In this document: in pieces, positions 6,401-29,400 of the stretch
Position numbering within the stretch: the stretch's first letter is position 1
How the letters are laid out: each line of letters begins with the position of its first letter
Assembly (NCBI GenBank): GCA_903813345.2
Contig: CAIIXF020000010.1
Coordinates: 19,107,181-19,171,180 of the forward strand
DNA: 64,000 bases
Origin: Owenia fusiformis
Taxonomy: Eukaryota; Annelida; Polychaeta; Sabellida; Oweniidae
Direction of reading: 5' to 3'
Notes under the pieces: generated by a model
The model's input: the letters and a program-made list of their open reading frames with translations, nothing else
Told to the model about the DNA's origin: nothing
The model's database searches: none
Translations under genes and position numbers: made by a program

Positions 6401-6879
6401 AAACAAATCTATTACTCAGTCATCCAGCATGGGTTTTATTCAATGTTCTTTCATTCCACCAAGTCTCATTGGTCTACTAGCTATAAGCGACCACCCTCTA
6501 CTTGACTAAACACCTTCTCACACAAGGTGTACTGTTGTGTTGTGCAAGGGCTTGGAGTTTTACAAATGTTTTCCAAATGGTCAAACTTTTATGACCATTT
6601 TACAAAACATGCTTATATTACCGGTCTTGAACGCATCCAGTGTTTTTTCTGACCATATGCTTACAGATATCTTATGTCTTCCTTCTTATCTCTTGTTTCA
6701 ATTTTCCGGTGCCCTGGGGGTTCTCACCCTTTCTCAATATTTCACTTTTCTCCTCCAGGTCATTCAACGAAGAACCCACCCCTTGAAAGTATTTCAGATA
6801 TTGCCATGGCATTTGATTAAAGAAAACAAAATATTCCAATATTAAAGACATCTCTAAGAAATAATTTTTTCTCTCTTAG

Positions 6880-7052
6880 ATATCAACCAATCAAAACTTG
6901 ACCTGGCCAAGAAGTTGGGTGCCAATTTTACCGTCTTAGCAACTGGTAGCAGCAGTGATGTAAAGAACAAAGTGACAGATGCCATTGGGTGTATGCCAGA
7001 TAGATCGGTAGAATGCTCAGCTGCAGAGACCAGTGTAAGAGCCGCTATATTG
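6880..7052 (+). CDS. SORD: Sorbitol dehydrogenase-like, exon n-2 (coenzyme domain)
   Basis: This exon reads INQSKLDLAKKLGANFT through to SVECSAAETSVRAAIL. It corresponds to the later part of the Rossmann NAD-binding domain of medium-chain polyol dehydrogenases (animal SORD, L-iditol 2-dehydrogenase), including the G-A-D/N segment after the adenine-ribose-binding acidic residue. A TCTCTTAG acceptor precedes 6880 and a GTAGGT donor follows 7052. The first two bases complete an Asp codon begun in an upstream exon. Exons for the zinc-binding N-terminal half are not visible in 1-6879, so they either lie before the window or are lost. Role: NAD-dependent oxidation of sorbitol to fructose in the cytosol. 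Confidence 0.88.
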
Positions 7053-7089
7053 GTAGGTTATGAATTTGGCAAGGTTGTGCCAGAATATA

Positions 7090-7256
7090 ATACAGTAAAA
7101 CCTGTCTAATCTGAACACCTCAGGGACCACCCAAGTGACTGGATGAGAAGGTGTTCACATTTCTAGGTTTTTAAAACATGTAACTCAATGAGAGAAAATC
7201 AAATTGAGACCGAGAAAAGTGTTCACATTGAGAGGTGTTCAGATAAGAGCCTCAAA
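7090..7256. mobile_element. Copy of the CAGTAAAACC miniature family in a SORD intron
   Basis: It begins with CAGTAAAACCTGTCTAATC and carries repeated GAACACC/GGTGTTC motifs typical of the family seen at 32147, 33920, 61738 and 63319. The right end is degenerate. The preceding exon frame runs on into its first bases, so the extra residues after the GTAGGT donor are not protein. Confidence 0.5.
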
Positions 7257-8641: not shown

Positions 8642-9052
8642 TGCATAAAAAAAAACAAAAAACAAGGGTGTCACTTAGTTAACATAACAAATTGGACTTC
8701 ATGAAGAATGTATTGGGAAACCCTAAAACCCAGTTAATCCATGCTTAAGGCCCCATGTAGAGTTTATATGGGTCCTTTAACATTTGAGACAAAAAGTGTG
8801 TGAATCAATTCTTTCAAGGAAATGATCCAGTTGCATTAGAATTATAGCACAAACTCATAATTTTGTCCATTTTCACAAAATGTATCACAAAAAAGTTCAT
8901 AAATTATTTCTTTACATATTAGATCAAGGTTTGAGATATTTGGTGTATGTTTCATTTTCTTGTGCTGTTTTTAACACATTTTGGTACTTCCCCATTGGCA
9001 CTTGTGCATACCCATTCATATTTATACCATACCAACAACTGTTCGATTTCAG

Positions 9053-9212
9053 CTACGCCAGCGCTGTTAGTCTAATGGCAACAGGCAGAGTAAATGTGAA
9101 GCCTCTTATAACACATACATTTAAACTGGAGGACACATTGAAGGCGTATGAACTAGTCAAGAACCAAGAGGATGGAGTTGTAAAGGCAATCATAAGGTGC
9201 AATGACTTTTAA
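9053..9212 (+). CDS. SORD: Sorbitol dehydrogenase-like, last exon
   Basis: After an ATTTCAG acceptor the frame reads YASAVSLMATGRVNVKPLIT, then HTFKLEDTLKAYELVKN, ending RCNDF and a stop at 9210-9212. VNVKPLITH and the 'AYE' helix are strongly conserved at the C-terminus of animal SORD, and the length fits the family end. The open frame upstream of 9053 is intron. Together the three exons supply about 152 C-terminal residues of a roughly 350-residue enzyme. Confidence 0.9.
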
Positions 9213-9959: not shown

Positions 9960-10190
9960 CCAAAGATACAAGACATGACTACATCTAATCACAAATTTGT
10001 TTTACATGCTTACATACATTAGTTTTATCTTAAAGGTAAAGGTATACAACTTATCCAGTTAACCTTTGGTAAAGTCAACAACTATGTCAACCATCTCCAT
10101 TCCAAACAATGGCAAAAACATAAGATTAATCACTTTTTGATGAAATATATATTGCTGATCGATTGCCCATTAAATTGTACATTATATTAA

Positions 10191-11411
10191 CTAAAAACAT
10201 ATTGTTCAAAATGGAAATTAAACATTAATATTGAAAAAACGAAAGTTGTGATTTATAATAAATCAGGAAAAATAATAAAACATAGTCATTTTAAATTTGG
10301 AAGTATAAATATAGAAAAAGTAAATGAATATAAATATTTGGGATTTGTTTTAAAAAGCTCTGGGAGTTTGAAACATGGCATATCAGAATTAAGTAAGAAG
10401 GCGATGAAAGTTATTTTTATGATGAGACAAAATTTTAAGTTTTCAACTATCAATGTAGAATTGCACACAAAAATCTTTGACATGTGTGTTAAGCCTATAT
10501 TATTATACGGAAGTGAATTTTGGTCAATGCTTCACTTGAAAGTTGACAGAAGGATTAGTCAAGGGGACCTTAAACTAGAGAGTTCTTATGAAGACTTTAT
10601 TCCTGAAAAAATACACAATAAATTTTGCAAATTCCTTTTAGGGGTTAACAAATATACTTCAAGTTATGCCGTTAAAAAAGATTTAGGAAGATTTCCATTA
10701 GCTATAGACTCACTTATATATTCCATAAAATATTGGTTGAAATGTGTGCATCAAACAAACGCGGATAGCTTAATAAATATATCATTTCGGGATAAAAATA
10801 ACATATATGTCAAACATATGGAATGCATATTAAAGTACTTTCATTTTCAACATGTCTTTGAAAATGGGAGTACGTTTGGAATAAAACGATTACTAAAAGC
10901 AATTAAACTTGAAATGCAAAGAAAATATATAGAACTTAATGATAGAGCTATAAGGGAAAATAGAAAACTTGGAAATTATATGAAAATTGATTACAATCTG
11001 GAAAGATATTTAACATTAAGCGTGAACAAAATGTTAATTTTTAAAATGGCCAGGTTTAGATTAGCAAACCATAATTTAAGAATTGAAACAGGGAGACACG
11101 AGAAAAAGAAAAAAGATGGCACTAAACAGCATCGACTTGAAATAAATGAAAGAATTTGTCAGATTTGCAATAAGGGGGAAGTAGAGGATGAAAAGCATTT
11201 TCTTCTTGTGTGTGATGGCTATAAAAAATGTAGATTTGAATTTTTTAATAAACTAAGTGTTATTGACACATTTGATAATATGTCGGATAAAGAAAAATAT
11301 AACTTTTTGATGACTTCTGATGATTTTGAAATTGTTAACGAATTGATACATTTTATAAATAAACTTTTTAATCAGCGTCGGGAGCTATTTGAAAAAGGAA
11401 AGATTGTATGA
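10191..11411 (+). pseudogene. LINE reverse transcriptase, C-terminal remnant
   Basis: This is a 406-codon intact frame covering the reverse-transcriptase thumb and C-terminal region with a zinc-knuckle-like C-x2-C-x8-H-x4-C motif. The palm with the catalytic aspartates and any endonuclease domain are absent because of 5' truncation, the usual result of incomplete target-primed reverse transcription. The frame has no internal stops, which suggests the insertion is fairly recent. Codon use is very AT-rich. Confidence 0.8.
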
Positions 11412-11543
11412 TGGTATTTGTGAAACAATGCATGTTGTTTTGTTTTTTTAACTGTATAATTATATGTAAATGTCTTGTAATTGATTTTGTGAGGAAACCA
11501 AGTGTTTGGTTTGAAACACAATAAAATCTTGAATCTTGAATCT
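10191..11543 (+). mobile_element. 5'-truncated non-LTR retrotransposon (LINE)
   Basis: This one open frame begins right after a stop at 10188. It runs WKLNINIEKTKVV, YKYLGFVLKSSG and KPILLYGSEFW, the segment that follows the catalytic YADD box in LINE reverse transcriptases. A Cys-rich motif near the C-terminus is C-x2-C-x8-H-x4-C (CQICNKGEVEDEKHFLLVC). Endonuclease and the catalytic palm are missing, so this copy cannot act by itself. After the stop at 11411 comes a short 3' UTR and an ATCTTGA-type repeated tail ending near 11543, the 3' end style of some LINE clades. The last 95 bases recur at 52017 and 53579. Confidence 0.85.
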
Positions 11544-11779
11544 TGTAAACAGAGAATACATATCACTTGATTGAATTTGATTTTGAAATACAGAATTACA
11601 TTCTTAAAATTGTCCATAAGAAGACGACCAACAAAGCTTTATATTCAAAATTCTTTTGTGTCGACGAGACAATTAAAATGTAAAATGTTTTATTTAAAGC
11701 CAGTGATAGTTGACTAAAGGTGTTAAAATTGTATGTTTGTTTTGAGATGGATCCTTTCTAAACACAGAGTTTATTTAGA

Positions 11780-11914
11780 TCAAACTATATTCCTTTCCAA
11801 AGATACATCAAAAGGTTCATCAACATCTAGACTCCCACTACCAGCAATGGTAACATCTTCAATTGGTTTGTCTCTATTGTTTGTATTGACCTTCCCAATT
11901 TTCCGTATAATATC
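11780..11914 (-). CDS. PPIB: Cyclophilin B alternative exon 5', form B terminal exon
   Basis: 44 codons and a [23 protein letters not shown], then [20 protein letters not shown] and RNIV. It is clearly paralogous to exon 5, but the ER-holding PFAVAKE segment has become PFDVSLE and the Cys is replaced by Ser. A polyadenylation hexamer AATAAA (- strand, 11770-11775) lies right after the stop. Acceptor CCAG, phase 0, compatible with exon 4'. Confidence 0.85.
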   Translation of the reverse strand, partial: DIIRKIGKVNTNNRDKPIEDVTIAGSGSLDVDEPFDVSLERNIV

Positions 11915-14900
11915 CTGGAATTGCATTAAACAACAATATTGTGAAGATAATGTGAGTGACAGATAAGATGAAAGGCTAATGTGAAGGGCTGGAATTAATG
12001 CGAAATTTCAAGGTTTGTGTCAGCTCCCGAAGGAAAGGGGTGAGGATTTTGACAAAATAAAACACAAGCCATCAAATTTCCTAATAAATACAACTTAGTG
12101 TCTATTTCCCACCTTGGGAGTAAGAGCTGGTCAAATAAAGTCAAAACGGATTATCAAGAATATGCATTTCTAGGCTCTGTACGCTGAAGGACAAGGTACT
12201 TTGTCAAAAGTAACTGTAGATTCTGAATTGAAAAAAAACTCTCAGAAATTTTTTATATCATGTGAACTCCAACTGTATCATAAAACATAATTCATACTGT
12301 CAACAAAGTAAAAAAACAACTTGCCATTCCATCTAAAACCACTCCAAATACAACATGTCTGCCATCAAGCCACAGAGTTTTGACAAGTGTGATAAAGAAT
12401 TGTGAGCCATTGGTGTCTGGTCCCGCATTAGCCATGGACAGCAAACCAGGTGCAACATGGCTCAATTCAAAGTTCTCATCAGGAAACGTCTCACCGTAGA
12501 TACTCTTGCCTGAAATGTAAAGTCACTCAAACATCTAAAATTATCATTGGCTATTTTTTTTAAGCTTGGTCCAAATACTTTGAAAACCCTGTTCTTAGTA
12601 ACTGGGTGATTTCTTTGGTTACTACGTATTTTTAGAAACTAGGTTAAATTATTTGGTAATACTGTTTTTGAGTATCTTGGTTAAAACATTTTGGTTATCC
12701 TGTATTTTAAAAACTGGGTTCCTCATCGAGGTTACATTCATTTTAGAAACCCCAAAAGATCTTTAATAACCCTGTTTTTAGAAACTGGGTTTAACTTTTT
12801 TGTTTCTGTATGTACCTTTTATTATACAATAATACTCTTACCTTCAAAAAGAGACCCAATTTAAAATAATTTTGGAATATGCAGCTCATATAAAACTCTT
12901 CAATTTTTAAATCAATATATTTTCTTAGATTTAACCATGTGGCTAGAATTTGCAACAAATTCAAAACGCAAGTATGATGTTGGTCTTTCAATTGAGCAAC
13001 ACTGATTTCAGTTCATGCATTTTTTAATCAATTATGCCTTGTTGTAATGGAGGTTTTTTGTGGTAATCGACCTCGAGATAACGCATTTACAATCTGGGGA
13101 ATATACAAACTTGGAGGTAAATGATCGCTTATATTTGTTTGGCAAAATTTAAGTTGAATTAATTTGGCACTAAAATTGGCATTTTCAATATTTTTGACCT
13201 AGTGGCAGGGAAACAATGATAAAGTTCATTGGCAGGAGGGAATAAATAATTTAAAATAATAACCTGGTTTCCTTAATTCTGCGAATATAATTTTGTTGTG
13301 ATGTATTTTAAGTGTGCATGTCCTAGAATCTCATTCAACAAGATGTTGAGCATTCGTATCAAAAATCATGCCAATATTTTCCAAACATTTTCATTTTTTG
13401 CTCGATAACCTTTATCAAGTGATAAATCCTAAATTATGTCAGAAGAATTGATATATATTTTAGATGAGGCTTTAACATGCAAAATGTCACCACCTGCCAT
13501 TTGTTAGACTGCCTAACACCACCTATAGACTGCTGAACACAACCAGCAAATGTGGTTTACGAAAAAAGTTGGGAGACTATAACAATATGTCCTCACTTGA
13601 CATGAATATACTTGTACTGTATATAAAGGAATACAATTGACCCATTTTAAACTAGAATTAAACCTTAACCAACATAAAAGACTGCAATCAATTTTTCTAT
13701 AAAATGTTTATTGCTGATCCTTTGGCAATTTAAATTGTACATTCTAGTGTAAATGATTCTTCTTGGAGTAAGTAAATGGAAAAGAAACACATAGATGAAC
13801 CTAGAGGGTGGCCCTTTAAGAAATGGAATGGGTGGACAAATGTTATGCTCCGTAGTCATGAAGGGGTTAATCTTTCCTAGTCATGGAAGGATTAATCTTT
13901 CAAGAAATATATACATAGTAAACATAATTGTACTTTCAGTCCTCGTTGGACACTGAATATTAATCTTGGGATAAACCCCATCTAAACCCTCCCATTTATA
14001 CATAACTTTTTTGTTTTGAATGCATAGAATCATACATGATCAAAACAATATGTTCTACTTATATATGATCTGAATATGATAAAAATGATAGAATATATTC
14101 CTAGAACTGTTCATAATATGGCAACAAATAAATATCTACTCTGGAAAAATTGTGTGCGATAAGACTATTATTTCAGGTGTAGAATGAGCATTTGAATGTT
14201 CTAATACGAGTCCTTGCTCATTGTCATTGACTGCTTAGCCTAAAGGTGGTGAAATTGGAAATGTTTCTTTTAAGATGGACCCCTTATAAACACTCCAAAA
14301 TTTGAGCAATCTATTTGGATTCATCTGAAGGCTCCTTGGCAACAGCAAAAGGTGTATCAACATCCAGAGATCCACATTCAGCAATGACAACATCCTCTTC
14401 TGGTTTATCTCCTGGCTTTGTTTTTGAACTTTCAATTTTTCTAACAACTTTCTGAAAACACATGTAGAAACAAAAAATTATTATCGGGGTATTATTTGCT
14501 TATTCCTACCTTCTCATGTTTAGGGGAAGGAGGGCGGGGGTGGGGTTATTGCAATATTTGGGTCCACGCCATTGACACAGTTTAATAAGGAAATGTGTTC
14601 TGATGATTAGGGCCTATATGTTTGACTTTCACACTTTGTTCCAAGAATGAACCATATTTTCACAATTTATCTGGATAATAAAACAATATGGTGGCAGAAA
14701 TTAGATGTGAGATGAGAGTGATTATCAGTTCATTTACTAATTTATGACATCCAAAGTATAATATAAACCACTTAAATAGACTAAAATGTAGACATGCATT
14801 TGTATCCAAATATGTGAGTTTCTGTAAAACAAAAAATGTTTGCTTGCATTGTAATTTAATTTCCAAGAATGCAAAACCTGTTAGATGAATCATTTTCCTC

Positions 14901-17900
14901 GCAATTGTGATAGACCAGATATTGCTGAGTTGTGAAAAAATGAAAATTAAACTATGTGAGATTCTTACACTGAAAGTAGGAGAAATCATTGTTCTAAACA
15001 AGGCATTAACATGACAAAATGTCACCACCTAGTTGCTCACAATATTATGAGTTCAAACTTAATATAAGTCAGATTTGAATTTCTGAGAACTTGTAAAGTC
15101 AAATTTGAACTTCTGAAAAGATGTAGATGATTTCGAAAAAAAAATTTGGTCAATTTGAAGCAAGTTGAAAACAGACCTTTTTGACCTTTTTTGACCTTGA
15201 GAAGGTCATTAAAGGTCAAATGTCAAATCTAAAGTCAGATTTGAATTTCTGAGAACATGTAGATGATTTTGAAAAAAAAAATTAGTCAATTTGAAGCAAG
15301 TTGAAAAAATACCTTTTTGACCTTTTTTGACCTTGAGAAGGTCAAATGTCAAATCTAAAGTCATGTTTGAATTTCTGAGAACATGTAGAATGTAGATGAT
15401 TTTGAAAAAAAATTTAGTCAATTTGAAGCAAGATGAAAAAATACCTTTTTGACCTTTTTGACATTGAGAAGGTCATTGAAGGTCAAATGTCAAATCTAAA
15501 GTCAGATTTGAATTTCTGAGAACATGTAGATGATTTTGAAAAAATTTTTTAGTCAATTTGAAGCAAGTTGAAAACAGACCTTTTTTGACCTTGAGAAGGT
15601 CAAATGTCAAATCTAAAGTCAGATTTGAATTTCTGAGAACATGTAGATGATTTTGAAAATTTTTTTTAGTCAATTTGAAGCAAGTTGAAAAAAGACCTTT
15701 TTGACCTTTTTTGACTTTGAGAAGGTCATTGAAGGTCAAATGTCAAATCTTAAGTCAAATCTAAAGTCAGATTTGAATTTCTGAGAACACGAAGATGATT
15801 TTGAAAATTTTTTTTAGTCAATTTGAAGCAAGTTGAAAACATACCTTTTTTGACCTTGAGAAGGTCATTGAAGGTCAAATGTCAAATCTAAAGTCAGATT
15901 TGAATTTCTGAGAACATGTAGATGATTTTGAAAAAAAAATTTAGTCAATTTGAAGCAAGTTGAAAAAAGACCTTTTTGACCTTTTTTGACTTTGAGAAGG
16001 TCATTGAAGGTCAAATGTCAAATCTTAAGTCAAATCTAAAGTCAGATTTGAATTTCTGAGAACACGTAGATGATTTTGAAAATTTTTTTTAGTCAATTTG
16101 AAGCAAGTTGAAAACAGACCTTTTTGACCTTTTTTGACCTTGAGAAGGTCAAATGTCAAATCTTAAGTCAAATCTTAAGTCAGATTTGAATTTCTGAGAA
16201 CATGTAGATGATTTTGAAAAAAAAATTTAGTCAATTTGAAGCAAGTTGAAAACAGACCTTTTTGACCTTTTTTGACCTTGAGAAGGTCATTGAAGGTCAA
16301 ATGTCAAATCTTAAGTCAGATTTGAAGGTCAAATGTCAAATCTAAAGTCAGATTTGAATTTCTGAGAACATGTAGATGATTTTGAAAAAAAATTTAGTCA
16401 ATGTGAAGCAAGTTGAAAAAAGACCTTTTTGACCTTGAGAAGGTCATTGAAGGTCAAATGTCAAATCTAAAGTCAGATTTGAACTTCTGAGAACATGTAG
16501 ATGATTTAGAAAAAAATTGAAGTCAGTCTAAACAGTATTTGTTAAGTTATAGGAAGTTGTAAGAAATTGTTACAGACGCCAACCGCCGGACGCCAACCAC
16601 CAACCGCCGGACGCCAACCACCAACCGCCGTCGCAAAAAAAACGGAGACCATAACAATATGTCACCACTTTTGGTGGTGACATAAAAACCTATCAAACCA
16701 TTTATATTTTCTGCAATAAGGTATCACCCCCTAATAAGCTCCCACCCTGCTTCTCAAAGTTCAAGAAATATTCAGGAATGAACAAATATTAACAATTCGT
16801 GAAAAAGATTGAAATTCTAAAGAAATCAAGTGGGTGATAATAGAGTACTTACACTTAAACGATGCCACTTATAGAGCATATGGTAACTTTATTTGAAACA
16901 AAGCTTGATAAACATTAATGTGAGACAGGCCCGTAGCCAGGATTTGGGGGGGGGGGGTTCGCTTGAACCCAATCGAACCCCCCCCCCCCTGGCTACAGGC
17001 CTTTGAGAAATGTATAGATTGTCTTAATATTATTCACACCATATAATGTAAAATACTTACCATTCCTTCTAAAATTTTTCCAAATACAACGTGTCTTCCA
17101 TCAAGCCATTCAGTCTTCTTAGTAGTAATGAAGAATTGTGAGCCATTGGTGTTTTTCCCTGCATTAGCCATGGATAACCAGCCAGATCCAAAATGCTTCA
17201 ATTTAAAGTTCTCATCATCAAACTTGTTGCCATAGATACTCTTGCCTAAAATGACAAAAATATGTTGTCATAAATATGGTTGTTTTAAAGTTTGGTAACT
17301 GTATACATGTACAGCTTAGAACTAGGTGAAATTAATGTTTGATTTAATTTCTATACCAGATTATCTCGTACAAAAGAGCATAATTTTGTACATAATCATA
17401 CTACCCTAGCCCCATACTGTAGCCTGTATTTCTTTAAAAGTGATACAGGCTACAGTGAAGTAGATTTTACATATATTCCAAGTATTCGACTATACATTGT
17501 ATAGATTCACTGAGCTCTATTTGCAACTTCAATGAAGCCTAAATCCCTGGTTCGTATACCATTTTAAGAAATACAGGCCACAGTATGGGGGTAGGGTAGT
17601 GTGATAATAGTCCTATTCGCGTTAGGAAATTACTGGTCATTAACATAATTATTTCCCGCAATGCAACACGATAAAATGGACAATTTTCTATTGGTCCGCA
17701 AAACACAACGTCATAGGCATTATCTCGAACCAACATTAGTACATTTGTATAATAATATTCTATAATCCAGACAATAATTAGAAAAGAAGATGGAAATTCA
17801 ATTTGCTTCGATTATTTTTTCTATGGCGTCGGAGCAAGTTCCGGGAACTGAGCAACTTCCGGGAAATCTGTGACGTCACTTGAATTTTAAACTTAGGATT

Positions 17901-20900
17901 TTGACGATTCTGGTGAATATATTTTTAAAAAACTTGTCAAATGTCTTTATAATGATCATATCTATCGTATGTGCAAATATAATTCATGATAAACCTCTAA
18001 TAAAGTCACAATGCGTCATTGAAAAACACAGCCAATGTTATTCCAATGGGGAAGTGCCCGGATGTTGAGAAAGTTGTACCACGAAACTGAACTCTCCAAT
18101 GCGGAGATAAGAATATTTCGCACGTTAAAAGTTAGCGCGTATAGGTATATTATGCTTCATATTTAGTTTTCATCAATTCAGTGTGCTAACATTATCCAAA
18201 AAATATTTTCTGGAGTCCCTCTTTTTTATCATAAAACTGTCATAATTTTGCCCCCTCAATATAAGTGATGGATATGTCAGTTACACAGTTATTTTTGTTC
18301 AATTTACAGTAATTAGACTATATACTGTACACTAAGATCATGCAGATGAACATCAACCAAGATTAAATATTAAGATAGTAAAATGGTATAAAATAAAAAT
18401 GCAGTAGTGTTCAAGAGTCAAAATAATAAAAGTAAAGAAAATTTAAAGTAAACTTATGAGTGATTAAATCTTGTCAAATGAAAACTCATATAAGCCAGTG
18501 GGGTCAACTATGGGATGTCGATGGTAGCTTTAAATTCAAAACAATATTTTGCAATACTGTACTCCCAGTAATTTTCATGTTCTACTATATTTTGCACTTT
18601 TCACGAGTTTTGGAAAAGCCGTAATTTTGTGTCTTTAACGCACTGCAGCCTCATTTTGAACAGCTACGCATGGCTGCCACCCATTACCTCTGTCCACCTT
18701 GGTAACGCTCACTTTCATGGTTGATGAACAAAAAAATACAATTGGGCAAATGCATTAAGACACCGGTGCTCTGAGGGTGGGGAGTTCTTGGAACTGGTTT
18801 CTAGCCTGGCAAAAACAACAGCCAGCAAAGGGCTTTTATGTTCACAGCACTCTGCTCGGACTCATCCCATAGTTGACCACTTGTGACTTTGTGCAAGAAA
18901 TCTCGTGATAGTATGTGCTTGCCCATTTTTGAAATACTATATATGTGATTTCCCATTATTCCTATTGTAGTGTGAAGAATTATCATATGTGACAATTTAC
19001 TAACCTAGCACAGCAGTATAAAATGAACATATCGGGCCATGATATGTGACTGTGAGTAACTGTAAACTGAATGTTCAATTATATCGTTTGAAGTCCTACA
19101 CCTGTTTTTGGAAATACTGTATCATTCCCTGGACACCCTACTGTAGATTGGGTTTAAAAGTCATGTTCGCTTGATTTTGGCGAATTTGGTATCGCCAACA
19201 TTTAGAAAAATTCTCTGGAACTTCTCTGGGTATTGTTCTGTGTATGAAGTCACTTCCAGTTGAGTTTTTACAAAATCAGAAAATGTCACATATAAACTGG
19301 CTCCGGAGAGCCAGTTCCCAGTCAATACGGATGGAAAAACTAATAATAAAAAGAAAAAACTTGGGATTGTAGCAGTGTCTATTGAGGTTCAAAATGTGCA
19401 GGATAAACATCAATTCATGATAGGTTTGTCAAAAAATATCACAAGTCCCACAGAAAAGAACCTGTTTGTTCCAAGTATATGGAAGGTGTGGCGTCAGAGC
19501 AATACCCTACCCCAACTGTTCACCAAACTAAATAGCTGCCAATATGCCAAAAATGGAAAAATCGCCAAATTAAGTAGCACCAAATCAACCCAATCTACAG
19601 TATATTTGGAAATCCAATTCGCTAGCACTTTTCCGAAAATGTTCAAATCTTACTCATATTTGATCTCCGGTTATAAACTGTTGTGTTATTTATCAAAAGT
19701 TAAATGGGATTTCTTGTAATATCAACCTATATGGTTTACCTGGATAAAACATCTGTTTTCCCAGAAGTTCATGACAATGATATTATATTTGAATTTCCGA
19801 TCTTGGAGTTGTCCTTTCAGAACTGGGAAGTTGAAGAATAGGTAGGTACAAGTTCAGATTTGGATAATGACCCAATATTGTCTCAATCTTTCCAGGGGTG
19901 TATAATTGAATTTGAGAGGAGTATTCATTAATTAGAAACACAGAATTATATTTACGCAGTTGTGTTTTAATATTTATATATTAAAAATAAGTCATTTGTA
20001 TATGATAAAATGGTTAAAATAAGGCAATATGTGAAGGTTAAGCACTATGTTACAAGTTTCTTGCAAAAGAGACTCAAACAAATTATGATGCTAAAATACT
20101 CCAAAATTAAAGAATGCGGAACAGAAATAAAAAGCTGCCATCACTTGGATTCTGGAAATCCACTGCAAATGGCTATAGAAGTGTAACACTTGTTACAGGT
20201 ATCGAATACATACACTCAATGAATGAAAGCAATAACAACCATGGTGAGTGACATAAATATCACAATGGTCTGCAACTAACTTGCACAATCAATAGTCTAC
20301 AATTCAAACCTTCTTTTCTTTGAATATCAAAGCTTGAGAAAAAGTCACTGATCTTAAGTAGTAGATGACTAAAGTTTCCATCACAGGTAGTCCCCAATTT
20401 TCAATGCTGTTACTGAAGCAATTTTTCAAGCTTTCACATTTTCAAAAATGGGTTTCCATGATCCATTAAAAGAAGCATGTTGCTATATGGTTTTACATGC
20501 TTCAGGGCTATTAAGCTAAATAAAGGTGGAGTCCCTTTAACTTGTAAAAGTAAGGTAACATACCTCCTGTGCCATCTCCATTGGTGAAGTCACCCCCCTG
20601 GATCATGAAGTCTTTGATGACGCGGTGGAATTTGCTGCCTTTGTAGGTGAGGGTTTCTCCACCTTTCTGAAATGACGGAATATATGGCAATTAGTTTTCT
20701 GAATACATTTTTAATGGCAACTATGCTAATGAGTATCATTACATTTCACTTATTTAATTTTGTTGTCGAATCAGTATTAAACTACCTATACAACATTACA
20801 GTACATATCAGCATATGGGATTTACTTCTGAAGTTTTCTTGTGAACATTTTTAATTTTGCCATCTACTAAAAGAACTGAACTTTCACTTTTGAAAACAAA

Positions 20901-23900
20901 TCCTTTCTATCCAGTAAGGATAGTGTTCTGAAACATTCCAAAAACACAAACCTCAAATCCTTCAGCTAGTTTCTTGAAATTTTCTACAGTTTTAGGGACA
21001 GTCTTTCCAAAAAGTCCAATAACAATCCTGCCTGCCTCCTTTCCTCCAATGGTGATATCAAAGTAGACCTGAAATGAACAACACATGTTGTGGTAAAATA
21101 AATTCAATAAGGCATTAATTTAATGAAATAGGACAGATTTCTTGGATTGCTTCGAATAAATATACAAAGCTTTTATATTCACCACTATTTAGTATAATAA
21201 AATGAAACAAAAGATAAATCATTTATCACTGGTCACTGTATCAAGCAAAAGTTATGGTAGTAACCTTCGCATCTAAGATGGCAGACAGTAAGTGTCTATT
21301 TTGATATATTTTTTTTTAGTTTTTATCGAATTAAACTACTAAACAGTTGATGTAATGCTTTGATATTTGAACTTGCATACTGACAAGTGACTTATGTTGG
21401 TGCCTCTATGTGTCGGACTGCCTACATATTATACACAAGTGACTTATGTTGGTGCCTCTATGTGCCGGACTGCCTACATATTATACAAGTAGTGTAAAAT
21501 TCTCATACTTGGATGAATTTGTGGTAGATAACATCGAAGATATCAAAGGAGGTTGGATATAAAAATACAGGGTGTCCATAAAGTCCCATTAAACTTTATA
21601 CAGAACTTGTGTAACTGTAGACTGTATGGACACCCTGTATATTCCATCTCCCTCTAGAGCAAGAGACAGATGTGAAAACAGGTTATGAGGATGTTTTCAC
21701 TACAGCTTGACATTCAACCTTCTTTATTTCAACCTGAATATTCTCTCAATTCAAATAACATTTATTTAAAACATTTTTAAAAACACTACTCCCACACAAT
21801 GCTGGATTATGGGACACCAAGTAGTACACAATTTTAAAGTGGAATGCATCGTAAAATAAAACAAGGCATTAACATGACAAAATGTCACCACCTAGTTGCT
21901 CACAATATTATGAGTTCAAACTTAAGTCAGATTTGAATTTCTGAGAACTTGTAAAGTCAAATTTGAACTTCTGAAAAGATGTAGATGATTTTGAAAAAAA
22001 AATTTGGTCAATTTGAAGCAAGTTGAAAACAGACCTTTTTGACCTTTTTTGACCTTGAGAAGGTCATTAAAGGTCAAATCTAAAGTCAGATTTGAATTTC
22101 TGAGAACATGTAGATGATTTTGAAAAAAAAATTTAGTCAATTTGAAGCAAGTTGAAAAAAGACCTTTTTGACCTTTTTTGACCTTGAGAAGGTCATTGAA
22201 GGTCAAATGTCAAATCTAAAGTCAAATCTAAAGTCATATTTGAATTTCTGAGAACATGTAGATGATTTTGAAAAAAAATTTAGTCAATTTGAAGCAAGAT
22301 GAAAAAATACCTTTTTGACCTTTTTGACATTGAGAAGGTCATTGAAGGTCAAATGTCAAATCTAAAGTCAGATTTGAGTTTCTGAGAACATGTAGATGAT
22401 TTTGAAAAAAAAATTTAGTCAATTTGAAGCAAGTTGAAAAAAGACCTTTTTGACCTTTTTTGACTTTGAGAAGGTCATTGAAGGTCAAATCTTAAGTCAG
22501 ATTTGAATTTCTGAGAACATGTAGATGATTTTGAAAAAAAAATTAAGTCAATTTGAAGCAAGATGAAAAAAGACCTTTTTGACCTTTTTTGACTTTGAGA
22601 AGGTCATTGAAGGTCAAATGTCAAATCTTAAGTCAAATCTAAAGTCAGATTTGAATTTCTGAGAACACGTAGATGATTTTGAAAAAAAATTTTAGTCAAT
22701 TTGAAGCAAGTTGAAAACAGACCTTTTTGACCTTTTTTGACCTTGAGAAGGTCATTGAAGGTCAAATGTCAAATCTAAAGTCATATTTGAAGGTCAAATG
22801 TCAAATGTAAAGTCAGATTTGAATTTCTGAGAACATGTAGATGATTTTGAAAAAAAATTTAGTCAATGTGAAGCAAGTTGAAAAAAGACCTTTTTGACCT
22901 TGAGAAGGTCATTGAAGGTCAAATGTCAAATCTAAAGTCAGATTTGAACTTCTGAGAACATGTAGATGATTTAGAAAAAAATTGAAGTCAGTCTAAACAG
23001 TATTTGTTAAGTTATAGGAAGTTGTAAGAAATTGTTACAGACGCCGGACGCCAACCGCCGGACGCCAACCGCCGGACGCCAACCACCAACCGCCGGACGC
23101 CGTCGCAAAAAAAACGGAGACCATAACAATATGTCACCACTTTTGGTGGTGACATAACAATGATATAGTAAGAGGGATCTGGCAAACAAGAATGAACAAC
23201 AGTATTGAACTCTTACATAAATTAATAAGTAGACATTTATTCTATGAATACAGCATTGCAGAAGCCAGCATATGGCATTTCAATATATGTGTTTCATAAA
23301 TGCTATATTAATATTTTATTGATCTTTTAATATTGATATATTAGATGCAACTTTATACTAGTAGTTATAAATATTCAAATTGATGTGCAATTAATCATTA
23401 AGAAGACTAGTATTTAGGACTAATGACTTTTCCACAGATAGCTGGCTAATTATGTTCATCATTGATCTGACATGAAAATGACCGTGTGATATATGATATT
23501 GCTTTTCAATTAAGACTGATATTCCATAGTTGGAAAGTGATATTTCCTGTGATCTACAAGTATAGATATACAATTCTAAAATATTCCCTGTCAGTACCAA
23601 TAAATGTAAGAGATGCAAAATAAATAAAATATCACCCATCTGAACAAACAATTGCTATTCAGATATGCAACATTGAAATATTGCCAGTCTGTATGAATTT
23701 CAATGGGACATAAATCTTACCCAACAAAAGGCGCGTCATCATTTGGGTGTATTCCTACAGATTATACACTATAGATTTCTGATAATCATTAAAAATCAAA
23801 TACAGACTCTTAATTCAGTACATGCTAACTGGAATGGTAAACTATGTGCTAAGATAGTGAGGACACCCATCTATTTAAGTCTCCATTAGGGAGTTTAATT

Positions 23901-25935
23901 ATGAAAAAGATCATCGAACAAGTCTTAATCCTTCGGTTAAAAGGCTGGTACAAATATAACCAATGTTTCAGAACTCCAATGTGATAAATTTCCAAATCGT
24001 CCCTCTACTATTAAAAGGTTCTATGTCCTCATGTACCATATTTGAGAAAACGGAGAACAAACATTTAGCTTCCTCTATCTTTGTGATACAGTAAAGTAGA
24101 ATTTTGACAAGAATGCTCATGCAGTATATAACCATGATGAATCATTCCTGATCAGGATGGCAAGAAATGTCAATGTTTAAGACTACCTTTTTTAAAAATG
24201 CCTTCTGGGATAGAACCTTTTGCGTCTGTAACGCAACAATGAGTTAAATTGATGGAGATGAAACTATTTTTAAAGAAGCAAGCCACACTATTGCGAAGAG
24301 TGACCCTTTTATATATCCAGAGCAAACATGATAAGGCATTATAACATTTTTACAAAATCCAGGCGCCCCTGCAAAGGAATAGATGACTCGTCTTGTAATG
24401 CTCATAAAGGTGCATCTAATTCGGCTAGCAATCTGAAACTTCCTGTGGGTCTGCTCCATGGAGTAAGGTTGTACTATGTAAAAGGACAAGTCAGATATCA
24501 TCCAGATAAAAAAGTTATGCAACATTATGTGGGTGTGTGTCATTTTGTCTTTGTCACACTGTATATACTATGTCATTAAATGTAAAAAGGTTTTATCTCC
24601 AATTTGAATCATGACATTGAATGCTAAAAAGTTTTATCTCAAGAGATAGAACCATGTAGCAGTAATTATCTTTTTCAAATAAAGGACATAGAACCTTATT
24701 GCATTAGAAATCTCCTATTTCTAATTGAGAACAGCTTTATAACCTTAATTTTTGAAAAGAGCACTAGTGACGTGGGGGTTAGAGGACCTATCACATACTG
24801 TTAATAAGTGGATACAGTATGTGGTGAACATCATATAATTTGGTTACTTTTCAGCATTAAAGTACTTAATCGAAACAGACTTTCCACTGTAACATCGGTG
24901 AAAACAATCTACAAGGGTGGCCGGTTATGCAAGTCTCGCTGAGATGAGGCAACACTTGTCCATATTTGTAGCGTGCGATGTACATGTGAACATCTTTGTT
25001 TGTGACACTAACAGTTCATGTATCGGGCTAAACTTAGTGGATAACAGCTGACTGATTTCCCTATAACTGTCACGGAAGTGTTGTCATAAAACTCCATTCT
25101 CGTGATTGACTCTAATAAATACTAGTGTTGTCGCGATGTGCCATAATAGTACATCGATGCATCGGCAGTTCTCAGTTGTAAACATCGATGCACATCGCGA
25201 TGTACATCGAGAAAAAGTCCGAGAAAAATGCACTGAAATACCGAACGCTAATGCACTAAAATACCGAACAGAACATATTAATAAGAGTACGCTGGTACAT
25301 CCGGGAACTTCTAGTAACGTTGAAATGAAAGTAAAGTAAATTGTTTTAGATTAATGGTTCATTTCTACTAACTAAAACAGTTTTAAAGCGAAAGAATATC
25401 AGAAAACATCAGAAAATGAAATAAGACATGAGAAAGGTAAGCGATTTGGGTCAAAATAAGATAAGAAAGGGTGATTTTTAGCAAATGAAATTTTTTTTAA
25501 AAACATCGATGTTTTGTTTCAGACATCGATGCATCGCCAGAATCAGCTTTGGCGATGTATATCGCGATGTATCGATTAATCGCGACAACACTAATAAATA
25601 CCTGCGATAGCATTTGTTCAGACACTAAACAATCAAAATGTACAAATTTATGCGGATCTTGTAATGATTTTGGATGAGAACGATATAAATTAATGACAAA
25701 AGCTTTTTTGAATCTCACAGGTAATGGTGTCACCATGGGCGTCACTGAATAATTCATTATCTGAATGCCATGTCATCAATGTTGAACTGATTTCCGGTTA
25801 CAAAAACAAAAACTCCGAACTTACTTTGTCCGTAACTTTGGGTCCAGTCTTCTTTTCTGCAGCTTCAGATTGGCCAAAATGGTAGATACAAATAATTCCT
25901 ACCACTAGGAAAGTGCTTACGGCAAGGCACTTCAT
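11780..25935 (-). CDS. PPIB: Cyclophilin B gene, full span (two alternative 3' ends)
   Basis: Peptidyl-prolyl cis-trans isomerase of the ER lumen. Exons: 25825-25935, 20952-21068, 20564-20666, then either 17061-17245 plus 14311-14451 (form A, 218 aa) or 12325-12509 plus 11780-11914 (form B, 216 aa). All phases agree: 0, 0, 1, 0. The protein has an N-terminal signal peptide, the cyclophilin core with [15 protein letters not shown] (catalytic Arg, Phe, Met, Gln), NGSQFFIT and the [10 protein letters not shown] drug-binding Trp/His segment, and the C-terminal extension that separates cyclophilin B from cyclophilin A. Human PPIB has 216 aa. The two 3' pairs could instead be a gene plus a headless duplicate, but no copies of exons 1-3 are seen between 12.5 and 14.3 kb. 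Confidence 0.9.
12325..12509 (-). CDS. PPIB: Cyclophilin B alternative exon 4', form B, GC donor
   Basis: 185 nt, exactly the length and phase of exon 4. Reads [20 protein letters not shown], then [16 protein letters not shown] and [17 protein letters not shown]. The active-site positions of exon 4 are kept, while surface positions lose positive charge (several Lys changed). The acceptor is CAG. The donor reads ATG then GCAAGT, a rare GC-AG intron with an otherwise perfect consensus; exon 4 has GTAAGT at the same place. No premature stop or indel, so it is under coding constraint or is a recent copy. Confidence 0.88.
12575..12795. repeat. Degenerate tandem repeat with GTTTTTAGAAACTGGGTT core
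   Basis: Four to five diverged copies of a unit of about 45 bp, (CTGTTTTTAGAAACTGGGTTnnn..TTTGGTTA), lie immediately upstream (on the - strand) of exon 4'. They are too decayed to give an exact period by eye. Confidence 0.4.
13466..13605. mobile_element. Short member of the TGTCACCACC element family
   Basis: The left end CATGCAAAATGTCACCACCT and right end CTATAACAATATGTCCTCAC match the ends of the large elements at 15000 and 21864, but the 140-bp body lacks the minisatellite. It lies between alternative exon 4' and exon 5 of cyclophilin B. Confidence 0.55.
14311..14451 (-). CDS. PPIB: Cyclophilin B exon 5, form A terminal exon
   Basis: 46 codons and a stop: [20 protein letters not shown], then [20 protein letters not shown] and PSDESK. 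The segment through PFAVAKE matches the vertebrate PPIB tail (PFAIAKE) that helps hold the protein in the ER. Here six further polar residues follow it. CAG acceptor, phase 0. Confidence 0.93.
15000..16686. mobile_element. Minisatellite-filled mobile element, copy A
   Basis: It starts GGCATTAACATGACAAAATG-TCACCACC and ends with CATAACAATATGTCACCAC and GGTGGTGACATA, so the ends share inverted TGTCACCACC. The body is a tandem array of a unit of about 130 to 170 bp with AGTCAGATTTGAATTTCTGA, GTAGATGATTTTGAA, GTCAATTTGAAGCAAG and TTTTTGACCTTGAGAAGGTC as landmarks, about ten copies. A GC-rich ACGCCAACCGCCGG repeat sits near the right end (16574-16634). It lies in the intron between cyclophilin B exons 4 and 5. 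Open frames across it are read-through of the repeat. Confidence 0.8.
15045..16520. repeat. Minisatellite array A (unit about 130-170 bp)
   Basis: About ten units of variable length; the length differences come mostly from poly-A/T runs and from gain or loss of small sub-repeats (GGTCAAATGTCAAATCTAA). Each unit contains the palindromic-like GACCTTGAGAAGGTC. Neighbouring units are very similar, which points to ongoing unequal exchange. Confidence 0.85.
16929..17003. mobile_element. Small GCCCGTAGCCAGG hairpin element
   Basis: GGCCCGTAGCCAGG is inverted at the far end as CCTGGCTACAGGCC around long G and C runs. It is a short copy of the family also seen at 31192, 34334 and 53990. It lies 57 bp from cyclophilin B exon 4. 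Confidence 0.65.
17061..17245 (-). CDS. PPIB: Cyclophilin B exon 4, form A
   Basis: 185 nt; reads [20 protein letters not shown], then [16 protein letters not shown] and [17 protein letters not shown]. Acceptor TTTAG, donor GTAAGT, phase 0 out. The closely matching human segment is [20 protein letters not shown]. It is the same length as the alternative exon at 12325-12509 and identical at 44 of 61 residues by my count. The active-site Phe, Trp and His positions are all present. Confidence 0.95.
17401..17599. mobile_element. Inverted-repeat element of 199 bp
   Basis: CTACCCTAGCCCCATACTGT at the left is inverted at the right (ACAGTATGGGGGTAGGGTAG), with arms of about 36 bp that run through GCCTGTATTTCTT. 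Non-coding. It lies in a cyclophilin B intron. Confidence 0.7.
17790..18135. other. CpG-bearing block with ETS and CRE sites in a cyclophilin intron
   Basis: Contains GTTCCGGGAACTGAGCAACT, a second TTCCGGGAA and TGTGACGTCAC near 17870. It is richer in CpG than its surroundings, and the 62-codon frame after it has no recognisable features. It could be an internal promoter or a piece of the CRE-carrying fold-back family seen at 5.4-6.2 kb and 47 kb. Confidence 0.3.
18495..18881. mobile_element. Inverted-repeat element of about 390 bp
   Basis: The left arm GGTCAACTATGGGATG is found inverted at the right as CATCCCATAGTTGACC. The arms are short and the interior is unique, non-coding sequence. Confidence 0.45.
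19139..19602. mobile_element. Inverted-repeat element of about 460 bp
   Basis: TACTGTAGATTGGGTTT at the left pairs with AACCCAATCTACAGTA at the right. The arms continue loosely through TTTGGCGAATTTGGT. The 114-codon frame crossing it begins inside the element and has no domain, so it is not annotated as a gene. Confidence 0.55.
20564..20666 (-). CDS. PPIB: Cyclophilin B exon 3 (catalytic Arg)
   Basis: Reads [20 protein letters not shown] then [14 protein letters not shown]. It holds the catalytic Arg (FHR), Phe-Met and Gln (FMIQGGDF) and ends with one base in a Gly codon before GTATGT. It is common to both predicted protein forms, so both keep the key catalytic residues. Confidence 0.95.
20952..21068 (-). 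CDS. PPIB: Cyclophilin B exon 2
   Basis: 39 codons, [20 protein letters not shown] to [24 protein letters not shown] is the classic first half of the cyclophilin fold. CAG acceptor and GTTTGT donor, both phase 0. The family usually has TGEKG here; this protein has AEGFEKGG at the join with exon 3. Confidence 0.95.
21568..21637. mobile_element. 70-bp TA-flanked CAGGGTGTCC element
   Basis: CAGGGTGTCCATAAAGTC and the inverse ending GGACACCCTG lie between TA dinucleotides. It is the smallest member of the CAGGGTG group in the window and lies in cyclophilin B intron 1. Confidence 0.7.
21864..23157. mobile_element. Minisatellite-filled mobile element, copy B
   Basis: It has the same two ends as copy A at 15000-16686, in the same orientation, with about seven to eight repeat units and the same GC-rich ACGCCAACCGCCGG block near the right end (23040-23104). 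It lies in intron 1 of cyclophilin B, 6.9 kb from copy A. The flanks just outside the ends differ, so it is an independent insertion or an old duplication, not a recent segmental copy. Confidence 0.8.
21910..22985. repeat. Minisatellite array B
   Basis: Same unit family as array A. The first and last units of the two arrays match each other better than neighbouring internal units do (for example the ending CTTCTGAGAACATGTAGATG then ATTTAGAAAAAAATTGAAGT). This is what is expected if both came from one parent element whose middle then changed copy number. Confidence 0.8.
24300..24570. other. Decayed relative of the 61.4-kb element
   Basis: The segment AAAAAAGTTATGCAACATT and the bases before it resemble the interior of the TA-flanked element at 61399-61630. 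The ends are not clear. The overlapping open frames have no protein features. Confidence 0.25.
25123..25593. mobile_element. Non-autonomous hAT-type element
   Basis: Inverted ends TAGTGTTGTCGCGAT and ATCGCGACAACACTA are bordered by a perfect 8-bp target duplication ATAAATAC (25115-25122 and 25594-25601). An 8-bp duplication and TAGTGTTG ends are typical of hAT transposons. Many ATCGATGCATCG-type sub-terminal repeats are present on both sides. It is 471 bp long with no transposase. It sits in cyclophilin B intron 1, 230 bp from exon 1. The 77-codon frame within it is not a gene. Confidence 0.9.
25825..25935 (-). CDS. PPIB: Cyclophilin B exon 1 (start and signal peptide)
   Basis: ATG at 25935. 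The 37 codons start [20 protein letters not shown]: a short basic start followed by a hydrophobic core, then small residues (SEAA) that could be cut, then [11 protein letters not shown]. That tail matches the KKKGPKV segment leading into the cyclophilin core in vertebrate PPIB. The donor is GTAAG in phase 0. The start is only 246 bp from the arrestin ATG on the other strand. Confidence 0.92.
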
Positions 25936-26181
25936 ATTTCTGCTCACAAACCGTTTCAAACCAAGAGCTGCAATTTTGGTGAAAAATGTGATTCCAATAT
26001 GGCGGTAGCGCAGGGTGTCGCAATTTGATTGGCTAAGCCAAAATCATAACCCTACGCATGCGTATTAGAAACCTCAGAAATTGCTTCCGGTGTCAACAAA
26101 ATTTTCAGAAAGTAAAAATCACTGCGGTTGTTTTCAACATTTTGCCAAGATGTAGCGTAAAATGGGAATCAAAAGGCAAAT
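25936..26181. promoter_or_regulatory. Bidirectional promoter between cyclophilin B and arrestin
   Basis: Only 246 bp separate the two ATGs of these divergent genes. There is no TATA box. Visible sites typical of housekeeping promoters are AATATGGCGGT (YY1-like, 25996-26006), an inverted CCAAT box ATTGG (26028-26032), TACGCATGCGTA (NRF1-like perfect palindrome, 26053-26064) and CTTCCGG (ETS-like, 26084-26090). Site names are from consensus matching by eye. Transcription start sites are unknown, so the two 5' UTRs may be very short or overlap. Confidence 0.75.
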
Positions 26182-26440
26182 ATGGGGAAGCTAAAATGCT
26201 TCGAGATCATCTTTGATGAAAATAGGACCGTTTATCATCCAGGGGAACTAGTAAAAGGACAATGTATCGTGGAATTAAAAGGAGACATGAAAATGAGGGC
26301 CCTGCGCATTTTTATGCGGGGAGTTGCAAAGGTTCACTGGACCGAATCGAGAAGTACGGGTACTCGGCTTGGAAATTATACCGAACATTACAATGCAGAA
26401 GTTGAATATTTCCTAAAGAAACAAGTTTTATATGGAGGAG
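26182..26440 (+). CDS. Alpha-arrestin exon 1
   Basis: 86 codons plus one base: MGKLKCFEIIFDENRTVYHP then GELVKGQCIVEL and ending KQVLYGGG. WTESRS with the following Y/N-rich strand matches ARRDC3 (WTESRN). Donor GTAAGT, phase 1. The next intron is 16.8 kb. Confidence 0.92.
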
Positions 26441-29400
26441 GTAAGTGTTTCATTCATGAATTTCTTAAAGAAATTCTATCCAGATTTTGGAAGGGTTATA
26501 CCCTTTTAGTCTTATTCCTCAAATCATAGGCCCATGAAGAAGCATCATAATTGTTCAACAACTTCAGTTTTACACAGTTTATTTATTTATACAATTTCTT
26601 GTCAGCTTTTTGGGATTCGTGGCAGGATTCGTTCATGATCGATGGATCTTCTAGTCTGATGACTTCTGGTCAGACTGTCAACCTTACGTACTGTCCTGTA
26701 CTGGAAAATGCGTTGAAATTTTATGCACACAATTATAAATTTGAGGAAGCATCGAACTTAGCAAAATAAACATAGCACTTCTAGTAGGTTGTTAGGTATA
26801 ATATTAAATGATATAAAAAGTAACACAACATATTTTAAAGTGGAAATAAAGCTAGGGAAAGTAATAAATATGCAAATTAATTTCAAATGACAATTCCCAT
26901 GTTAACAAATGGCACAAATGCTTTTTGAATACCTTTTAACATAGACATTTTCAGCCAATCTCTAGAGGCAGAATCAGATTTTCTTTTCTTGAATGGCGTG
27001 ATTTTGACACGAAAAGTTCACATATTGTCAATAAATCAGACTCTGCTAAAAGGCCATGGGCCCCTTGTTTCTATTCTGCCATGCTTTTTTGCTGAAATTT
27101 GTTATATGCGATGATAATGATCAATCTCTCAATTTGCACTTTTTCATTTTGTTTCAGAATAACATGCAATTTGTATGAATCATGCTGTAGCAATCTATTA
27201 TTTATTATCATATATCAGCTTTATATATGTACACATTATTAAATAGGCTGTCTGGTATTAACCTTACAAAGTAAATACATAAACAGCAGCAAAGAGCTGG
27301 AATCTTGAATTCTCCCTTCACATTTTACCATTTCTGTTAAAGATATTCTCATTTCTTTTAAGATTATCTTTACTCTTAGCTGAGATGAAATTCATTTTTC
27401 AATTTATTAGGTGTGAGGTCATTTTTAAATTCTCAACAATGTGCAGCACCGTGTTCCTTATGTATGGAAGATGAGTTTAGATAACACATAATATTTTGCT
27501 AAAATAATAAGATGCTAGGAAGGGAACTGTTAGAATGTATATAGTTTCAAAAAACAGATGTAACAAAAAAACTCCAGACTGATCTAGTGTAAACATATAT
27601 TTCAAGTTCAATGGATAAATGTAAGATTTTCTTGCTCTTTCAAAATGTTAAATATAATATAAGGTAAAATGTGTAAAATAAAGAACCATTAGGGGCCAGC
27701 CTTTTGGAATCTTTGCCCAATTCAGCATTGTGGTTAATTAATTTATTTACAAAGAACGGCAAATATAGGATCTATTTTTTAGCTCACATGGCAAGCTTTT
27801 TTATAAATTGATATTATAAAACTCCAGCTGTTGGCTGCATCATTACAAACCTTTCAAAGTTTGCAACTACATGTGAATCATTGTTTGATGAATCAGAAAA
27901 AGAAATTCCAGATGAATCTTTTATTACTCAAGTGATTACCAAGATGGGAGCAATGAAACACAGTACATGCACTGTCATCTGAAACACCTAGGCCTTATTT
28001 GAGTTCTCTATGGGTTAAATCCTTCAGTCCAGAGAAGCCCTTATTATTAAAAAGTGCAGTTACAAAATTTACATTTGAAATGATAAAGGATAATTTCTTT
28101 CATAATAACTTATAAAAAGCCGATCAATGTATCAAGAAAATACGTTTAACAATGTCAAATTATCTGTCATTACATGATATTTCTAGAATCTAAAATATGA
28201 AACCTTAAAACAGTTACTACCCATGACTTGATTCAACCGCAGAGCCAGATTACATATTTGGAAATAGACAATTTTGAACATCATTTCAACACTTTTATTG
28301 ATTGAAAACATTTTTTGAATTTCACCTTTGAATCCAGTTTTTGATATTTGAGGTTCATTTGTTATAAAATTTAAGTCTATTTTCTAAAATAGGGGTATTT
28401 TTAGAAAATCAGTTCTGTTTAATGCTGAAAAAGTCTTGACCTTTTTTCTTTGGAAAACACCAATGGGTCACTAAATAGTATAATTGGTATTCTGTCCCTT
28501 AGGTACCATTCATGTCAGTAGCTCCTAAGACAGGGATAATTACCATCAATAACCAAGTATATTTTAGAAGTATGTATCGCAAGTCAGCATATGGAGTTGA
28601 TTAATATGTATATTTGTAAAACTCAAAATCTATACGTAACTTAAAAAACTAAACATCAGTTGGAAAATTCCTATAAACCATGATAGAATTTTCAAATGAG
28701 TTATGACCAAAACATCCTGATGGTAATTCCATATGATTCAGAGGTGGAACATATGACTGAGACATGATAGCCTCTTATATTTACACGATACTCAGCCTTC
28801 CAGGATGGTTCACAGAGCTCTTGCAAAAAATTTGTGGGCTTACTTTCCTTTTGTGAAAAATGAAAATTCATCAGTTTAGCAGTCAACACTATCTGGCTGA
28901 AGCATGGTAAAGTCACTAAAGCAGGATGGCTTAGTCCAGCCTATCCTTTTAGTTTTGACTTTTTTCTTACTTAGATATACCAGGTTCAGAGAATATATCC
29001 TAAAAATGCCTGGCTTAAAACAAAGGAACACACAGCATGGTTTGGGGCATACATAAGATAAAGATGATTATTTTACTTGCAATTTCGGTATGATACTTGA
29101 AGATACAACTGAACCAAAGATAGAACCCCTGTGTGCTAAATAACATTCCCAGCAATTCTTGATAATGAATTTGGTATAACCCTATACTGTACATAAGACT
29201 GAGCTCTTGTCTAAAACTGATTGAGTACTTGCCTTGTCAGATGACTTTAGGGTCTCAAAAGTATGTAGATTTTTATTACAATCTTAAAAACCCTGAATTC
29301 TAAAATGTTTTACACAAGACATATTAGGTGTTAGTATAAATCCAACAAATGATGATGGGGACAAGGGGGGGGGGGGGCGCAGGGGCGGATCCATGAACCA

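Follow-up and report, generated by a model that had tools for sequence, protein, structure and literature searches.

The gene and its two terminal exon pairs

The window analysed here, a stretch of 64,000 nucleotides of the annelid Owenia fusiformis (contig CAIIXF020000010.1, positions 19,107,181 to 19,171,180), contains on its minus strand a cyclophilin B (PPIB-type) gene in which shared exons 1 to 3 are followed by one pair of terminal exons, 4A and 5A, and then by a second pair, 4B and 5B. The coding part of exon 1 (25825..25935) begins with ATG, encodes a signal peptide and the residues KKTGPK that start mature PPIB, ends at a GTAAGT donor and is common to both products. It was the only PPIB-like one of two candidates when the region upstream of exon 2 was scanned for an ATG, a hydrophobic core and a phase-0 donor. 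Its protein aligns with the N-terminus of human PPIB in the PDB alignment, and its hydrophobic start (mean hydropathy 2.65 over 11 residues) classes it as a signal peptide. Exon 2 (20952..21068) and exon 3 (20564..20666) are also shared, and each has one close copy in the genome; exon 3 carries the catalytic Arg, which we take to be R55 in CypA numbering.

Exon 4A (17061..17245) has an AG acceptor and a GTAAGT donor, and it is followed by the coding part and stop of exon 5A (14311..14451) and by a candidate poly(A) signal AATAAA (13707..13712). Exon 4B (12325..12509) has an AG acceptor and a GC donor, GCAAGT, which otherwise retains the consensus. It is followed by the coding part and stop of exon 5B (11780..11914) and by a candidate AATAAA (11689..11694), while another AATAAA begins at 11775. 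The splice sites are plausible and the phases are matched in both pairs, and the B pair shows none of the stops, frameshifts or broken splice sites of a pseudogene. An earlier note on this DNA had described two exons 4 of 185 nucleotides with the same phases, each followed by its own terminal exon, in a gene for cyclophilin B. All of this was borne out, and our 45 of 62 identical residues, which include the split glycine, equal the 44 of 61 given there.

The reading frame was found to be open through the last codon when the head is joined to 4A-5A, to 4B-5B or to 4A-5B. When 4B is read after 4A, a stop appears after 15 codons of 4B, as 185 nucleotides is not a multiple of 3. Inclusion of both exons thus shifts the frame and gives no full enzyme, and the choice between them should be exclusive. 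Since 5A precedes 4B in the gene, a 4B-5A junction in cis is impossible. The two predicted products carry the PF00160 domain in Pfam (8.5e-52 for A, 3e-50 for B) and have human PPIB as the best solved relative (8k0f, 2.9e-91 for A and 2.4e-83 for B). The B half alone also matched PPIB entries best, with 147.8 bits (4fru) against 132.3 bits for PPIC (2rmc).

The exon-4 residues A101, Q111, F113, W121, L122 and H126 (CypA numbering) are identical in A and B, and we take these to be the catalytic and proline-pocket residues of CypA. All of them except W121 are among the columns conserved in more than 85% of a prokaryotic panel, which consisted of 80 of at least 496 contig matches, the examined ones being bacterial and archaeal cyclophilins. 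B retains all 25 columns conserved at this level, in a panel that was chosen with B as the query and therefore leans to B, which outscores A in 73 of the 80. No relative was confirmed on viral contigs.

Origin of the pairs and constraint on the B pair

Exons 4A and 4B are identical at 144 of 185 nucleotides, and in exon 5 A and B have 22 residues in common over the first 42 codons. When the A protein was used as a tblastn query against the window, the matches to 4B and 5B had E-values of 7e-26 and 4e-8, respectively, and these values rule out chance similarity of the two pairs. Beyond the exons, a few bases at the edges of exon 4 and two collinear blocks of the 3' untranslated region (3'UTR) align, all of them short. 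The first block of B (11714..11765, minus strand) lies just past the stop and matches 14240-14293 of A with 81% identity over 54 nucleotides (E 3e-9). The second (10128..10186, minus strand) matches 13686-13746 with 80% identity over 61 nucleotides (E 3e-9), and its longer gapped local alignment scored 151 against a maximum of 134.5 in 200 shuffles. This block contains the AATAAA of A, and the counterpart in B reads AATATA. The exon identity and the 3'UTR homology together indicate that the exon pairs are duplicates, and the alignable blocks place the duplicated unit between a point just before exon 4 and a point past the poly(A) region.

The equal length of the two exons 4 was rejected as support, because it is inherited: a distinct cyclophilin gene (L002) on the same contig, 9 Mb off, also has a 185-nucleotide exon with AG and GTAAGT borders and the same residue boundaries. 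A tree built from the C-terminal half of the proteins, with 11 and then 10 rows, did not resolve A, B, the C3 paralogue and PPIB, so the evidence that A and B are sisters comes from the DNA and the 3'UTR and not from this tree. Between the two 3' blocks of B there is a young dispersed repeat of about 1.34 kb (10191..11530, plus strand) with an open frame of 406 residues. With 40 of 323 candidates scored, it was found at 99% identity over all 1340 bases in at least nine other places of the genome, and over bases 1-1336 in at least one more. Its frame had no match in Pfam and NCBIfam; to judge by its sequence, the element resembles the 3' portion of a non-LTR retrotransposon. The AATAAA motifs of B at 11775 and 11694 are new and nearer to the stop, and the messages of B may end there. 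The repeat, the homologous 3'UTRs and the GC donor of 4B go beyond what the earlier note had described.

We searched for a second head in several ways. When exons 2 to 5 were used as the query in a permissive tblastn search (E up to 50) of the window, no second copy of exons 2 and 3 appeared. On the sense strand of 12510-14310, the best ungapped score for anything like exons 1 to 3 was 27, against a mean of 28.5 and a maximum of 35 in 25 shuffles, so the statement that no copy of exons 1 to 3 lies between the sets still stands. In the same interval, none of the ATG-started candidates with GTRWG-type donors resembles a signal-peptide first exon that ends in a fitting phase-1 donor. In the whole assembly (498 Mb, with matches on contigs C1-C12 and one small contig), exons 1, 2 and 3 each had one match that is clearly their own. 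The other 11 of the 14 matches were 45-72% identical, and the one at 72% spans 29 residues only. The B pair was found once, among 19 matches overall. On these searches we rejected the idea that B has a hidden head of its own, either in the window or in the assembly, although a sequence missing from the assembly may still be present in the animal.

These results bear on the possibility that B is transcribed separately and is trans-spliced to the head, or forms its own unit with other first exons. Drosophila mod(mdg4), in which several 3' sets are joined to a common head by trans-splicing, is a precedent for it. In B, however, no fitting first exon of a separate unit was seen in 12510-14310 among ATG-started candidates with GTRWG-type donors, and the pair lies downstream on the same strand, less than 8.1 kb from exon 3, so that cis-splicing suffices. 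We consider both forms of this explanation very unlikely.

The divergence between A and B by the Nei-Gojobori method was 0.55 at synonymous sites (dS) and 0.20 at nonsynonymous sites (dN) for exon 4, and 0.93 and 0.47, respectively, for exon 5. When human PPIB was used to polarise exon 4, two changes were common to A and B, six were in A only, eight were in B only and three were three-way. If B were dead and only A were working, A should show hardly any change, so the change in both exons 4 speaks against a B that is free of constraint. The changes are fast and about equal in the two copies, as expected if both are used. For the six A-only changes P is 0.017 if the dN/dS of PPIB is taken as 0.05, and 0.22 if it is 0.10; the excess of change in A is therefore suggestive only and depends on the assumed normal constraint.

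Neutral decay of B was simulated at d = 0.27, which is half of the exon-4 dS, with one indel per 10 to one per 20 substitutions. The frame of 4B and 5B stayed open with a probability of 0.0003 at the higher indel rate and 0.009 at the lower, and at d = 0.34 this fell to between 0 and 0.002. At d = 0.27 about 26 residue changes are expected in exon 4, against the eight B-only and three three-way changes seen. The hypothesis that 4B and 5B have been dead ever since the duplication would agree with a headless pair and with the bias of exon 5 change towards B. Neutral decay at the estimated divergence, however, keeps the frame open with P < 0.01 and predicts far more residue changes than were seen. 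Unconstrained decay of B since the duplication is unlikely, and we regard permanently dead exons as the least likely of the explanations.

It is also conceivable that the main second product is 4A-5B, which has a new tail only, and that 4B is minor or unused. The open frame of this combination and the GC donor on 4B agree with such mixed pairs, but 4B seems to be constrained at least as much as 5B, and we think that this explanation is very improbable.

At lower divergence the simulation is less strict. The frame stayed open with a probability of 0.035-0.16 after 0.10 substitutions per site and 0.009-0.06 after 0.15. This permits a loss of constraint in about the last third of the branch of B, which makes a recently beheaded copy a serious rival. 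It would mean that a full tandem PPIB duplicate recently lost its exons 1 to 3 and that 4B and 5B are a headless relic with frames kept open by past selection. Such a history explains the constraint without any splicing, and it would suit the faster evolution of exon 5 in B, the young repeat in its 3' region and the degenerate distal poly(A) hexamer. Against it, exons 1 to 3 have left no trace in the 1.8 kb before 4B, and the roughly 1.2 kb between the poly(A) signal of A and 4B would need to have held a head that spans more than 5 kb in the A copy. The four splice sites beside and between 4B and 5B are all intact, though a recent relic could show the same. We consider this main rival unlikely.

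The reading that we consider probable is a tandem duplication of the 3'-terminal exon cluster in a single PPIB-type gene, which led to alternative 3' ends. The segment that was duplicated in tandem is the 3' half of the gene, which starts shortly upstream of exon 4 and reaches beyond the poly(A) region. Exon 3 would have two possible partners: 4A, in messages that end at 5A, or 4B, in messages that end at 5B and skip 4A, 5A and the poly(A) site of A. A 4A-5B hybrid is likewise in frame. The two products would have the signal peptide, the N-terminal half and the catalytic Arg in common, and what sets them apart would be the C-terminal half of the barrel, with the S2-pocket gatekeepers 81 and 82, and the whole tail. 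The poly(A) site of A may compete with the distal acceptor, and the products may differ in substrates or localisation. We infer that both 3' ends are most likely used in RNA.

Several observations weigh against this reading. The GC donor of 4B is a rarer type than GT; GC donors are described as enriched in genes with alternative splicing (PMC2490688). The distal poly(A) hexamer of B is degenerate (AATATA), and the young repeat separates it from exon 5B. For both exons together dN/dS is 0.43 (bootstrap 0.23-0.80), a value which rules out equal rates and which, taken alone, is compatible with a constrained A and a free B. Exon 5 is asymmetric and faster in B: over 40 columns compared with human PPIB, seven changes were common, one was A-only, nine were B-only and eight were three-way, so the tail of B is either looser or adapting. 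No copy of a spliced exon 3-exon 4 junction was found elsewhere in the genome with up to three mismatches to a 29-base pattern that fits 4A and 4B alike; an intronless copy would prove splicing.

The earlier claim that one gene makes two isomerases was thus upheld in part. The single head and the two intact, phase-compatible and constrained pairs fit it better than a copy dead since the duplication, while a recent loss of the front would look much alike.

The S2 pocket and the C-terminal tail

In CypA the gatekeepers of the S2 pocket are residues 81, 82 and 103, with residue 73 as a secondary one (PMC2911226). Product A has N81 and K82, product B has E81 and T82, and human PPIB has E81 and R82, while residue 103 is Ala in all of them. 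PPIC has E81 and T82, as in B. By eye, PPIC (2esl/2rmc) has T82, P105, L116, D134 and S162 in common with B, whereas human PPIB and A differ at these positions. In the prokaryotic panel P105 is present in 80 of 80 sequences and L116 in 32 of 80. The PPIC-like residues of B may therefore be a return to the common cyclophilin state and not a likeness to PPIC.

Each copy may have lost ancestral residues, namely E81, P84, P95, D106, V117 and V132 in A and K89, K91, G94, W97, K105, T116, K131 and E134 in B. The human tail VEKPFAIAKE is retained in A and altered, partly kept, in B. This tail has a role in retention in the endoplasmic reticulum (ER), although a literature search gave no text confirming it. 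It is possible that the exon-4 copies split the properties of the ancestral enzyme and that B gained PPIC-like S2-pocket residues together with a weaker retention-type tail. By the choice of 3' end one gene would then make both a resident enzyme of the PPIB type and another that is secreted or resembles PPIC; we offer this idea tentatively and regard it as rather doubtful.

Surroundings and comparison with known systems

An arrestin-domain gene (26161-26526, plus strand; N-terminal part of PF00339, 1.6e-13) lies head to head with the PPIB gene, about 0.23 kb from the start codon in exon 1, and the two likely share a promoter region. About 150 bases before 4A there is an inverted repeat (17392-17446 and 17554-17608) of 55 bases with 85% complementarity and a loop of 107 bases, which may fold as an RNA hairpin or represent a small mobile element. 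Two arrays of one AAGGTCAAAA/TTTGAC-rich repeat, with periods of about 129-275 bases, occupy 15094-16516 and 21952-22783. They are bounded by GTGGTGACATTTTGTCATG-like ends, and one of them takes up the 4A-5A intron. Short ends of a related kind occur near 13600-13480 and also near 2300 in locus L001. The arrays resemble a dispersed element whose interior is tandemly repeated.

Farther away, 50589-52153 and 52151-53715 are tandem copies of 1565 bases with 100% identity, so that they either were duplicated very recently or are an artefact of the assembly. Pieces of a zinc-type alcohol/polyol dehydrogenase gene lie at 6858-7106 and 8826-9209 (plus strand), with a weak PF00107 match below the cut-off and weak NCBIfam matches. 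A 24-base tandem repeat, GCTCTCACAGCCCGCTGTCACAGC, with several frames open, lies at 46251-46451. Rfam gave no matches in the window at the gathering score. Elsewhere in the genome, further cyclophilin-like exon groups lie close together on C6 (11486718, 11509645 and 11525642) and on C9 (33.04-33.06 Mb), and these are probable tandem cyclophilin genes.

The signal peptide and the PF00160 fold of human PPIB are common to both predicted products; human PPIB has a single 3' exon set, and here there are two. The arrangement is comparable to Drosophila pip, in which common 5' exons precede eight tandem homologous terminal exon clusters, one of which is chosen per transcript (PMC9013439). In both genes homologous tandem terminal sets stand behind one head, and here each has its own stop and 3'UTR. 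The pip gene encodes a different protein and has eight clusters with known expression, whereas the PPIB gene has two clusters. The same source describes that the 3' variable regions of Drosophila PGRP-LC are selected via competing RNA structures (PMC9013439), and a choice of 3' variable regions behind one head is what we propose here. Ten inverted-repeat pairs were found in 12510-20563, in one species and without a shuffle control, and these are leads only. A complementarity of 18 bases (89%), likewise a lead without a control, joins the region before 4B (12796-12813) to a tract just before 5A (14460-14477), and this pairing could mask the acceptor of 5A.

We found no report of a cyclophilin B with such duplicated terminal exons in the open-licence literature. 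The architecture itself is known, and a housekeeping gene is unexpected for it. If 4B and 5B are used, a conserved folding enzyme of the ER would swap its substrate-facing half and its tail by the choice of 3' end, and an enzyme of the secretory pathway would join the few genes known with duplicated terminal exon clusters. The shared N-terminal half would make this gene a natural swap experiment, in which the surface residues and tails of cyclophilins can be related to substrate choice and localisation.

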